Shown piece after piece: positions 35,144 to 40,100 of a stretch of 64,000 nucleotides of DNA. A program made the translations under genes and the position numbers. Origin of the DNA: Pseudofrankia sp. DC12. Lineage in GTDB: Bacteria > Actinomycetota > Actinomycetes > Frankiales > Frankiaceae. Below the pieces are notes generated by a model. That model searched no databases. It was not told the origin of the DNA and saw only the letters and a program-made list of their open reading frames with translations. The stretch covers positions 678,978-742,977 of the forward strand of contig NZ_KQ031391.1 in NCBI RefSeq assembly GCF_000966285.1, written 5' to 3'. Each line of letters starts with the position of its first letter. Position 1 is the first letter of the stretch.

Positions 35144-36586
35144 CTAGCGCCGGGTCGGGGTGATCGGCTCCGGGAGGTCGGTCGCGCCGCTGAGGTAACG
35201 GTCGACCGCGGCGGCGGCCGAGCGGCCCTCGGCGATCGCCCAGACGATCAGCGACTGGCCACGGCCCATGTCACCGGCGACGAAGATGCCGGGGACGGAC
35301 GACTGCCAGCCCGCGTCGCGGGCGACGTTGCCCCGGCCGTCCAGCTCGACGCCGAGGCCCTCGACCAGGCCCTCGCGCTGCGGGCCGACGAAGCCCATCG
35401 CGAGCAGCACCAGCTCGCACTCGAGCTCGGTCTCGCTGCCCTCGACCTTCTGGAACCTCCCGTCGACCGACTCGACCTCGTACATGCGCAGCCCGCGCAG
35501 CCGGCCCTCGTCGTCACCGAGGAACGCCTCGGTGGAGACGGCGTAGACCCGCTCGCCGCCTTCCTCGTGCGCCGAGGTCACGCGGTAGAGCATCGGGTAG
35601 GTCGGCCAGGGGTTCGCCGCCGGCCGCGTCTCCGGAGGCCGGGGCATGATCTCCAGCTGGTGCACCGAGACCGCGCCCTGGCGATGCGAGGTTCCAAGGC
35701 AGTCCGCGCCGGTGTCGCCGCCGCCGATGACGACGACGCGCTTGCCCTTCGCGGTGATCGGCGGCTCGGCGAGGTCGCCCTCCTGCACCCGGTTGGCCAG
35801 CGGCAGGAACTCCATGGCGAAATGGACGCCGCTGAGCTCACGGCCGGGCACCGGCAGGTCACGTCCGATCGTGGAGCCGCCGGCCAGGACGACCGCGTCG
35901 AAGGTGGCACGCAGCTCCTCGACCGAGAGGTCGACGCCGACGTCGCAGGAGGTCACGAACGTCGTGCCCTCCGCCGCCATCTGCTCGAGGCGCCGGTCGA
36001 GGACGGCCTTCTCCATCTTGAACTCGGGGATGCCGTACCGCAGCAGGCCGCCGATCCGGTCGGCCCGCTCGAAGACGGTCACGTCGTGACCGGCGCGGGT
36101 AAGCTGCTGGGCGGCAGCGAGCCCCGCCGGCCCGGAGCCGACGACCGCGACCTTCCGGCCGGACCGCACCGACGGGGGCACCGGGACGACCCGGCCCTCC
36201 GCGAGCGCCCGGTCGATGATCGAGACCTCGATCTGCTTGATCGTCACCGGATCGTCGGAGATGCCGAGCACGCAGGCCGCCTCGCACGGCGCCGGGCACA
36301 GCCGCCCGGTGAACTCCGGGAAGTTGTTCGTCGCGTGCAGCCGGTCGATGGCCTCCTGCCACTCGCCCCGGCGGGCGAGGTCGTTCCACTCCGGGATCAG
36401 GTTGCCCAGCGGGCAGCCGTTGTGGCAGAACGGGATGCCGCAGTCCATGCAGCGGGACGCCTGAGCGGTCAGCGAAGGCGCCGGGAAGTCCTGGTAGACC
36501 TCCCGCCAGTCCTGGATTCGGACGTCCACGGGCCGGCGCGCCGGTAGCTCCCGGTGGTGCCGGAGAAACCCAGTCGGGTCAGCCAT
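35144..36586 (-). CDS. gltD: Glutamate synthase small subunit
   Basis: The 480-residue FAD/Fe-S subunit delivers NADPH electrons to GltB for glutamate formation from glutamine and 2-oxoglutarate. The N-terminal Cys clusters (SRCMDCGIPFCHNGCPLGN, GRLCPAPCEAACVLG) bind 4Fe-4S centres. The FAD motif is AVVGSGPAGLAAAQQLTRAG, the NADPH motif VVVIGGGDTGADCLGTS, and the C-terminal GIFVAGDMGRGQSLIVWAI closes the FAD site. AAGGA precedes ATG 36586. The frame is open for another 192 codons upstream, but that sequence is a palindromic repeat element, not GltD-like. It lies downstream of gltB, separated by that element. Confidence 0.95.
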   Translation of the reverse strand: MADPTGFLRHHRELPARRPVDVRIQDWREVYQDFPAPSLTAQASRCMDCGIPFCHNGCPLGNLIPEWNDLARRGEWQEAIDRLHATNNFPEFTGRLCPAPCEAACVLGISDDPVTIKQIEVSIIDRALAEGRVVPVPPSVRSGRKVAVVGSGPAGLAAAQQLTRAGHDVTVFERADRIGGLLRYGIPEFKMEKAVLDRRLEQMAAEGTTFVTSCDVGVDLSVEELRATFDAVVLAGGSTIGRDLPVPGRELSGVHFAMEFLPLANRVQEGDLAEPPITAKGKRVVVIGGGDTGADCLGTSHRQGAVSVHQLEIMPRPPETRPAANPWPTYPMLYRVTSAHEEGGERVYAVSTEAFLGDDEGRLRGLRMYEVESVDGRFQKVEGSETELECELVLLAMGFVGPQREGLVEGLGVELDGRGNVARDAGWQSSVPGIFVAGDMGRGQSLIVWAIAEGRSAAAAVDRYLSGATDLPEPITPTRR

Positions 36587-36597
36587 TCCAATCCTTA

Positions 36598-37167
36598 TCT
36601 CTTTGTTCGTGGCGTCCGGGCGCGAGCCTCCGGCCCCGATCCTCGCTTCGCTCCGGTCGTGGCCTCCGGCTCGCGTCCTCCGCCACGAACGGGGCTTCGC
36701 TCCGTCCGGTCGGCCAGTCAGGCCGCTTCGCTTCGCTCGCGGCCTGCTGGCCGACCGGACTACGCGAAGCCTCTGGGTACAGCCTGATCGGTGGAGCGGT
36801 GGTGATCGGGCGCTTCGCTTCGCTCGCGGCCGCTGGCCGTCCGGACTACGCGAAGCCTCTGGGTACAGCTTCATCGGGACTTGCTTCGCCTCGCTCGCGG
36901 GCCCTTGGCCCACCGAGCCACGCGAAGCCTCTGGGTACAGCCTGATCGGTATGCCTCCACTCGCGGTTCTCTCGAATGATCGGCCTCGACCTGATGGCTT
37001 CGCGTAGCCCGGTGGGCCAGCGGGCCGGAGCGAAGCGACCGGCCCGACTGGCCCACCGCGCGGAGCGAAGCCCTGTTCGTGGCGGAGGACGCGAGCCGTA
37101 GGTCCCGACCGCAGCGAAGCGGAGGTCGGGGCCGGAGGCTCGCGCCCGGACGCCACGAACAAAGAGA
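36598..37167. mobile_element. 570-bp palindromic element with long terminal inverted repeats between gltB and gltD
   Basis: The ends are inverted copies: TCTCTTTGTTCGTGG at the left reappears inverted at the right. The first 42 bp are identical and similarity continues imperfectly to roughly 36775 and 36990. Each arm contains its own GTTCGTGG/CCACGAAC hairpin. The centre has three direct copies of a 22-bp core (36762, 36848, 36920; GCGAAGCCTCTGGG...) within 72-86-bp units that also share GCTTCGC-CTCGC. No transposase is present and no clear target duplication is seen. It resembles a MITE or REP/BIME-type mosaic. Its position means gltBD transcripts would contain it. Confidence 0.75.
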
Positions 37168-37172
37168 CACAG

Positions 37173-40100
37173 TCAGGCGCGGACCGCTGTCATGATCAGT
37201 TCATCGGCTGGGATGCCTTGCTCCTTGGCTTGCGCGATCACGGTCAGGACCCGCTTGTAGTCGCGGGGCATGACCTTGACGAACTTGGCCTGCTCGTCCT
37301 CCCAGCTGGCGAGCAGGCCGGCGGCGACGGTGGAGCCGGTCTCGCGGCGGTGGCGGGTCAGCAGGGAGACGAGCAGCGCCCGGTCCTCGGCGTCGAGGGG
37401 CTCGATGTCGACCATCTCGGCATTCACCCGCTCGACGACCGGGTCGTACAGGTAGGCGACGCCGCCGCTCATGCCGGCGGCGAAGTTGCGGCCGATCTGG
37501 CCGAGCACGACGACGGTGCCGCCGGTCATGTACTCGCAGCCGTGGTCGCCGACGCCCTCGACGATCGCGGTCGCGCCCGAGTTGCGGACGCAGAACCGCT
37601 CACCGACGACGCCCCGGAAGTACGCCTCGCCCGCGGTCGCGCCGTAGAGAAGCACGTTGCCGGCGATCGTGTTCTCCTCGGCGCGCAGCGGCGCCTCCTT
37701 CGGCGGAAAGACGATGATCCGCCCGCCGGACAGGCCCTTGCCGGTGTAGTCGTTGACATCGCCCTCAAGGGTCAGCGTGATGCCGCGCGGAACGAACGCG
37801 CCGAAGCTCTGGCCGGCGGAGCCGGTGAACCGCAGCGATATCGTGTCGTCAGGCAGGCCGACGGCCCCGTAGCGGCGGGTCACCTCGTAGCCGAGCATCG
37901 TGCCGACGGTGCGGTTGACGTTGCGGATCGGCATCTCCAGCCACACCGGCCGGCCGTCCTCCAGGGCGCCCTCGCACAGCTGGATGAGCGAGTTGTCCAG
38001 CGCCTTGTCGAGGCCGTGGTCCTGGCTCGCTGCGTTGGACAGCGAGCCGCCGAACGGGGTCTCCGGAGTGTGCAGCAGCGGGCTGATGTCCAGCCCGGCG
38101 GCCTTCCAGTGCTCGACGGCGAGGGCCGCGTCCAGGATGTCGACCCGGCCGACGGCCTCCTTCAGCGTCCGGAAACCCAGCCGCGCCAGGTACTCCCGGA
38201 CCTCCTGGGCGATGAAGGTGAAGAAGTTCTCGACGAACTCCGGCTTGCCGTTGAACCGCGCGCGCAGCGCCGGGTTCTGGGTGGCGACCCCGACGGGGCA
38301 GGTGTCCAGGTGACAGACCCGCATCATCACGCAGCCGGCGACGACCAGCGGCGCCGTCGCGAAGCCGAACTCCTCGGCGCCGAGGAGCGCGCCGATGACG
38401 ACGTCCCGGCCGGTCTTGATCTGGCCGTCGACCTGCACCACGATCCGGTCGCGCAGGCCGTTGAGCAGCAGCGTCTGCTGCGTCTCGGCCAGGCCCAGCT
38501 CCCAGGGCGCGCCGGCGTGCTTGAGCGACGTCAGCGGCGAGGCGCCGGTACCGCCGTCGTGGCCGGAGATCAGCACCACGTCGGCGTGCGCCTTGGAGAC
38601 GCCGGCGGCGACGGTGCCGACCCCGACCTCGGCGACGAGCTTGACGTGCACCCGCGCGGTCGGGTTGGCGTTCTTCAGGTCGTGGATGAGCTGGGCGAGG
38701 TCCTCGATCGAGTAGATGTCGTGGTGCGGCGGCGGCGAGATCAGGCCGACGCCCGGCGTCGAGTGCCGGGTCCTGGCGATCCACGGGTAGACCTTGTGGG
38801 CGGGCAGCTGCCCGCCCTCCCCCGGCTTCGCGCCCTGCGCCATCTTGATCTGCAGGTCGTCGGCGTTGACGAGGTACTCGCTGGTCACGCCGAACCGGCC
38901 GGACGCGACCTGCTTGACCGCGGAGCGGCGCAGGTCGCCGTTGGCGTCGGGGACGAAGCGCTCGGCGTCCTCGCCGCCCTCGCCGGTGTTCGACTTGCCG
39001 CCGAGCCGGTTCATCGCGATCGCCAGGGTCTCGTGCGCCTCGGCGCTGATCGAGCCGTAGGACATCGCTCCGGTGGCGAACCGCTTGACGATCTCGGAGA
39101 CCGGCTCGACCTGGTCGATCGGGATCGGCCGGCGCAGGCCCGGGCGCAGCTCGAACAGGCCCCGCAGGGTCGCGTTGCGCTTCGAGAGGTCGTCGACCTT
39201 GGCCGTGTACTCCTTGAAGACCTCGTACTGGCGGGTCCGGGTGGCGTGCTGGAGGAGGAACACGGTCTCCGGGTTGAACAGGTGCACCTCGCCGTCGCGG
39301 CGCCACTGGTACTCGCCGCCGGTCTCCAGCGGCCGGTGCACGAGCTCTGTGGCCACCCGCGGATGGGCCCGGGCGTGGCGCGCGGCGACCTCGGCCGCGA
39401 GCACGTCGATGCCGACGCCGTCGATCCGCGACGCGGTACCGGTGAAGTACCGGTCGATCAGGTCGGAACGCAGCCCGATCGCCTCGAAGACCTGGGCACC
39501 GGTGTAGCTGGCGATCGTGGAGATGCCCATCTTGGACATCACCTTCAGGACGCCCTTGCCGAGCGCCTTGACGATGTTCTTCTCGGCCTGCTCCGGGGTG
39601 ACGCCGGCGATGTCGCCGCGGCGGATCAGGTCCTCGACCGACTCGAAGGCCAGGTACGGGTTGACCGCGGCGGCGCCGAAGCCATTCAGCAGCGCGATGT
39701 GGTGCACCTCGCGGGCGTCGCCGCTCTCCACGATCAGGCCGACCTTGGTCCGGGTCTTCTCCCGGATCAGGTGGTGGTGCACCGCCGAGGTGAGCAGCAG
39801 CGACGGGATCGGCGCGAGCCTCGCGTCGGAGTCCCGGTCGGACAGCACGACGATCCGGGCGCCGTCGGCGATCGCCGCGCTGACGCCGGCGCAGATCTCC
39901 TCGATCCGGGCCACCAGCGCGGTGCCGCCGCCGGCGACCTCGTACAGGCCGCGGACGGTGACGGCGGCGAAGCCGGGCATGTCACCGTCGTCGTTGATCC
40001 CGATGATCTTCGCCAGCTCGGTGTTGCTGATCACCGGGTAGGGGATCTGGACGACGCGGCAGGTCGCGGCGCCGGCGTCGAGGAGGTTGCCCTCCGGGCC

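Follow-up and report, generated by a model that had tools for sequence, protein, structure and literature searches.

A genus-specific family of dispersed foldback elements in Pseudofrankia and its member between gltB and gltD

Bacterial MITEs and foldback elements, such as NEMIS/Correia and ERIC, are non-coding, intergenic repeats with terminal inverted repeats, which sometimes lie in operons and affect mRNA processing; in some enterobacterial operons, intercistronic REP hairpins protect or end the mRNA and limit read-through. REP, REPIN and BIME elements are moved by RAYTs (Nunvar 2010, PMC2817692; Bertels and Rainey 2011, PMC3116915). CGTC-tagged palindromic repeats, with stems of 8-9 bp, were reported from five other phyla, none of which is Actinomycetota (Di Nocera 2013, PMC3733652). 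For Frankia, a survey of insertion sequences in CcI3, ACN14a and EAN1pec describes transposase-bearing elements, with no mention of MITEs or palindromic repeats (Bickhart 2009, PMC2770080). In the open-access literature no paper was found that describes the repeats presented here.

The window is a stretch of 64,000 nucleotides, positions 678978-742977 of the genome of Pseudofrankia sp. DC12 (G000:C1), which is a single contig of 6,884,336 bp. The initial annotation had noticed a palindromic element separating gltB from gltD; indeed, the 586-bp gap between the two genes is occupied almost wholly by an element of 570 bp, whose parts, in window coordinates, are the following:

36598..37167, no strand assigned: full-length composite foldback element, 570 bp, with two inverted heads flanking a direct-repeat core
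36605..36690, plus strand: end hairpin HP1, gltD-facing copy (GTTCGTGGCGTCCGGGC ... CCGCCACGAAC), from inverted-repeat search, family alignment and covariance model
36693..36771, plus strand: second hairpin HP2, gltD-facing copy (GGCTTCGC ... GCGAAGCC), from the inverted repeat and covariation at an orthologous site
36725..36792, plus strand: core direct repeat 1, from direct-repeat search
36811..36878, plus strand: core direct repeat 2, with about 69% ungapped identity to repeat 1, from direct-repeat search
36883..36950, plus strand: core direct repeat 3, from direct-repeat search
36996..37072, minus strand: second hairpin HP2, gltB-facing copy, from inverted repeat and fold
37075..37160, minus strand: end hairpin HP1, gltB-facing copy, the first structure after the gltB stop, from inverted repeat and fold
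37173..37175, minus strand: gltB stop codon, with HP1 starting 12 nt downstream in the gltB direction
36584..36586, minus strand: gltD start codon (MADP...), kept in 8/8 genus genomes, with the ribosome-binding site just beyond the element

The two arms (36598-36725 and 37040-37167) are 128 nt each and 91% complementary, and their outermost 42 nt form a perfect inverted repeat, so that the annotated 42-bp termini, with likeness extending beyond 100 bp, are borne out. The description of the arms as hairpins also holds, each being made of two, HP1 of 86 nt and HP2 of about 79 nt (77-79 nt in this element), as does that of three internal direct repeats, which are 68 nt each. Folding of the whole element as RNA gave -464 kcal/mol, against -280 (sd 7) for shuffled sequences (z = -26), a stability far beyond that of the shuffles. 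The motif GCGAAGC forms one strand of nearly every hairpin loop within 36605-37160; this sequence is known to form an unusually stable DNA mini-hairpin, with possible relevance to the handling of single-stranded DNA.

The minus-strand frame was correctly annotated as open into gltD, since an ORF at 35144-37162 runs through the element into this gene; however, only two of the three recurring LYPEASR repeats are read in it, one of the spacings between repeats being 86 nt. A coding role for this frame was rejected, since gltD has its start beyond the element and one repeat is out of frame; both the start codon and the ribosome-binding site of gltD are kept in all relatives. The open frame is an incidental by-product of a G+C content of about 72%.

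The element is a member of a genus-specific, non-coding family of dispersed foldback elements. The family is built of the modules HP1 and HP2, which form long inverted repeats enclosing a core rich in hairpins. Sequence search, which the initial annotation had proposed for further copies, revealed many partial and inverted ones in the DC12 genome and in six relatives. For the 17-nt head GTTCGYKSCGTCCGGGC the counts are 23, 56, 13, 34, 30, 61 and 17 in seven Pseudofrankia genomes and 0 in the eighth; it is found once in each of 2 of 27 other Frankiaceae, where the surrounding sequence is no element, while the reversed pattern, used as control, gave 0 matches. A covariance model of the 86-nt HP1, built on 45 copies, was searched in 35 genomes, all Frankiaceae: at E <= 1e-3 it matched 29, 68, 13, 41, 68, 122 and 16 times in seven Pseudofrankia genomes, where the 122 matches of G005 are possibly a lower bound, since at most 128 candidates per genome were scored, and gave 0 matches in the eighth genus member (G007) and in the 27 other Frankiaceae. 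Copy number by this model thus differs almost tenfold between species. Draft contigs end in or beside elements (C132, C235 and C275 of G006; C1, C29 and C334 of G003); since draft assemblies break at elements, draft copy numbers are likely underestimates. An artefact of assembly or contamination is unlikely, because two of the carrier genomes are closed. The assembly of G007 consists of 5.4 Mb in 850 contigs, and it may represent a MAG or a deep branch.

Two head subtypes exist, GTTCG[CT]GGCGTCC and GTTCGCTCCGTCC, and heads are frequently duplicated in tandem with the junction CTGTG. Two-headed members range in size from 40-50 bp (L251, L346, L347) over 350-700 bp to 1.4 kb. No convincing gene was found in any of them: in those of up to about 1.4 kb the only ORFs overlap one another and lie in sequence derived from the repeats. 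In L236 two heads enclose an ORF of 234 aa, which probably represents an ordinary gene with a distinct element on either side. Collections of plasmids and phages gave no match to the family. Rfam gave nothing above the gathering score, the best value being 27.9 bits against a cut-off of 90; its miRNA-type matches were below threshold and driven by the hairpin, and were discarded.

Other repeats accompany the family. A second, smaller palindrome of about 40-50 bp, with core AATCGGCTTCGCCGATT and flanks GGGACCC and CACGACCTCC, sits inside foldback loops or arms, one repeat family being nested in another (L204:617-633, L207 near G000:C1 3319100, L198:3028-3044, L092, L244, L261, L265, L274). A G-rich stretch (..GGGCGGGAAGGTTGTT) recurs in G001 and G004 immediately beyond many of the heads and resembles one more repeat family, joined to element ends; its loci are mostly in G001 (L231:888-901, L240, L241, L247, L250, L256, L258-L260).

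Comparison of orthologous sites, also proposed in the initial annotation, revealed empty sites both at gltBD and elsewhere. At gltBD the element is missing in G006 and G001, where the gap is 37 and 40 bp, respectively; in G002 a 60-bp gap holds an element remnant, CCTCCGCCACGAACACAGAGATAGGA; G003-G005 carry elements of the other subtype, and the gap of G007 consists of about 180 bp of unrelated sequence. For 14 elements of DC12, the joined coding flanks were searched and judged by the distance between them, and several sites were element-free in the closest relatives; absence was confirmed by reading at at least 6 of 9 sites (L064, L056, L065, L068, L069, L077). L064 is ilvB-ilvN, as identified by protein sequence, and in G002 these genes overlap directly and no element is present. 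At L065, the protein of the carrier ends 1-2 residues before that of the relatives, and its TGA lies in the CTGAG end of the element. The rpoA-rplQ site is common to six genomes: here the element starts flush with the rpoA stop, and about 300 bp of unrelated intergenic DNA lie beyond it. At this site HP1 has been lost exactly in G003, while in G001 both hairpins have been lost and a short scar, TGATGGTTCG, is left. Many insertions are old, because they are common to several species. In other Frankiaceae (L314, L315, L318-L326) a different, native G+C-rich hairpin is found immediately past the rpoA stop, within the rpoA-rplQ operon, in the position that the foldback element takes in Pseudofrankia.

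The paired structure is constrained. Among the 45 HP1 copies, nine pairs vary on both sides and the covariation score is 0.234, compared with 0.065 for shuffled alignments and at most 0.045 for slid structures, thus above all of them; since these copies share ancestry, the counts do not represent independent events. In stem 2, the six inner pairs vary on both sides. By contrast with the variable stems, the internal-loop strands (CGTCCGGGC and GTCCTCC) and the apical CTCGCTTCGCTC are almost constant. The rpoA-rplQ orthologues, whose covariation likewise surpasses that of shuffled and slid versions, display 11 two-sided pairs and are 98% paired; at another site, shared by the sister species G002 and G006, all stem substitutions in two hairpins consist of four compensated pairs, three of them adjacent, and none is one-sided. 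Adjacent double changes and flips from G-C to C-G without intermediates suggest that both arms change together, through template switching in the hairpin or through conversion by a different copy, and not through slow compensation point by point; the conserved mismatched loops, however, argue that arm-to-arm correction is not the sole force.

Position relative to genes, with gene ends assigned by a simple codon-usage gene finder, is biased. Among the heads that face the 3' end of a gene, 47 of 71 lie 3-15 nt past the stop codon; among those that face a 5' end, the start is no more than 35 nt away in 21 of 44, and some elements are placed directly upstream of ribosome-binding sites. Flanking gene pairs are tandem in 55 cases, convergent in 29 and divergent in 2, against a background of 74, 12 and 18 (P = 6e-4). 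The nearness to stop codons is not merely a consequence of short gaps: at rpoA the element directly abuts the stop, although a long intergenic stretch remains. Like REP/BIME elements, the family is extragenic with a bias to gene 3' ends.

The search for a mobilising system gave negative results. PF01797, the Y1/RAYT transposase domain, is absent in 7/7 carrier genomes, while the same search was positive in control genomes including Escherichia coli. No target-site duplication was found in 27 two-headed elements, for which the longest direct match was 3.89 nt, compared with 3.75 nt after shuffling (109/500). Among the inner neighbours of 73 elements, the 25 commonest families listed consist of housekeeping genes. 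An autonomous parent with the same ends was not found at the loci read, where all copies of the outer-end motif lead into HP1 or a remnant.

Taken together, a dispersed foldback family with a preference for gene ends, which would act at gltBD as a 3' barrier, is the best overall explanation, with a probability of roughly 0.7, the dispersed family itself being highly probable. In the proposed mechanism, members are, or once were, non-autonomous palindromes that would spread through an enzyme acting on their single-stranded hairpin form; they would favour, or survive best, directly past stop codons, and would shrink or disappear through precise loss of hairpin modules. Mobility mediated by an enzyme is the part of this mechanism towards which we lean, with some reserve. 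A bolder version is improbable: a foldback class specific to the genus that lands on the stop codon, its terminal CTGA or CTGT either providing the stop or overlapping with it. An enzyme without relation to RAYTs would copy it in a structured single-stranded form, DNA or RNA, template switching from arm to arm would keep the hairpins perfect, and the host would have come to use the copies as gene-end hairpins.

Other explanations account for part of these data. The most serious, although still unlikely, is that the hairpins are selected by the host at gene ends, as bidirectional terminators or stabilisers of mRNA 3' ends, where they replace native ones, so that dispersal would reflect secondary duplication and no parasitism. 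The position flush past stop codons, the avoidance of divergent promoters, the native hairpin of other Frankiaceae at the same rpoA position, the pairing maintained by compensated changes at orthologous sites and the near invariance of the loop strands and apex amid variable stems all agree with it; however, sites are lost almost without trace in close relatives, even inside essential operons, copy number differs nearly tenfold from species to species, elements also lie directly upstream of ribosome-binding sites, and T-tract terminators are missing. Growth, movement and upkeep of the palindromes without any enzyme, through replication errors (hairpin template switching and slippage) and ectopic gene conversion among copies, is a weaker candidate: it would explain the flipping of neighbouring pairs in blocks, including double transversions, the tandem duplication of heads and the nested insertions, as well as precise hairpin loss and the lack of target duplication, but arm-to-arm correction alone would erase the conserved mismatched internal loops, and conserved ends at many unrelated gene ends require a copying mechanism.

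A strict REP/REPIN-BIME system, moved in trans by a RAYT (Y1) transposase, is largely refuted and very improbable. Extragenic hairpins in inverted pairs, the 3'-end bias and a GTAG at the foot of some HP2 hairpins recall it, but all seven carriers lack PF01797, and the only genome placed in the genus that has a Y1 transposase (G007, L086) is also the only one without any element. The least probable reading, hardly credible by now, is an RNA specific to gltBD, either a structured leader or a regulator, that works like a riboswitch or adjusts stoichiometry: the very stable fold and the location between both subunit genes would fit, but dozens of copies lie next to unrelated genes, two sister genomes lack the element at gltBD and Rfam gave no match above cut-off. 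A gltBD-specific leader is thus refuted by the dispersed copies and the empty sites, a situation clearly opposite to that by which the initial annotation would have recognised a fixed local leader, namely no second copy anywhere and base-for-base conservation of the sequence at gltBD in distant relatives. A secondarily acquired effect of the element on gltBD, including the GltB:GltD stoichiometry, is nevertheless possible.

Returning to the dispersed foldback family and its member at gltBD, the operon does not depend on the element, because relatives without it at this site exist. The element contains no T-tract terminator according to prediction, a weak site at the gltB end being the sole one obtained, and no sigma-70-like promoter was predicted. 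Once transcribed, HP1 past the gltB stop may act as a 3' barrier, shielding or ending the gltB mRNA, and may reduce read-through into gltD, thus uncoupling it; a strong hairpin 12 nt past the stop would impede 3' exonucleases, perhaps also transcription, and would so favour gltB over gltD. By analogy with intercistronic REP hairpins, the element is probably a 3' barrier for gltB mRNA that uncouples gltD, and the family probably tags or ends mRNAs at gene ends; for an appreciable effect on gltB:gltD expression we would give slightly less than even odds.

The family adds an actinobacterial, RAYT-less example to the dispersed palindromes of bacteria. It also provides a natural system in which the same site is filled, shortened, scarred or empty in sister species (gltBD, ilvBN, rpoA-rplQ), so that one can ask how such repeats move and whether subunit stoichiometry changes; the stem changes at orthologous sites, fully compensated and block-wise, allow mutation templated by hairpins to be weighed against selection for pairing.

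Compared with known systems, the Pseudofrankia elements resemble REP/REPIN/BIME in being extragenic and palindromic, with inverted pairs, mosaic clusters and many copies, and also in their compensated stem changes, placement near gene 3' ends and excision-like losses. They differ in that REPs are palindromes of 20-40 nt, whereas these hairpins are 79-86 nt with several stems and two conserved internal loops, and GTAG is found at some HP2 feet only; in addition, the composites measure 350-1400 bp, are actinobacterial and have a Y1/RAYT gene in no carrier. With CGTC-tagged repeats they share dispersed palindromes, a CGTC-containing end and the lack of a dedicated transposase, a likeness that is a four-letter match only and for which no homology is claimed. 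Like MITEs and foldback elements (NEMIS/Correia, ERIC), they are non-coding, intergenic, bounded by terminal inverted repeats and sometimes placed inside operons, with many copies of 50-600 bp and a few longer members; unlike them, they display no detected target-site duplication and no cognate transposase, their arms are made of separate hairpins and their ends are duplicated in tandem. Like the insertion sequences of Frankia they are repeated Frankiaceae DNA with inverted repeats, but they are absent from the other Frankiaceae examined. The annotation as a non-autonomous transposon or REP/BIME mosaic is therefore right as to class, while the lack of RAYT/Y1 in carriers speaks against a strict REP and that of detected target-site duplications against a classical MITE. 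The elements are best read as a variant of the REP/BIME/MITE kind from Actinomycetota which provides hairpins at gene ends, in a form and lineage for which no description was found, rather than as a new category.
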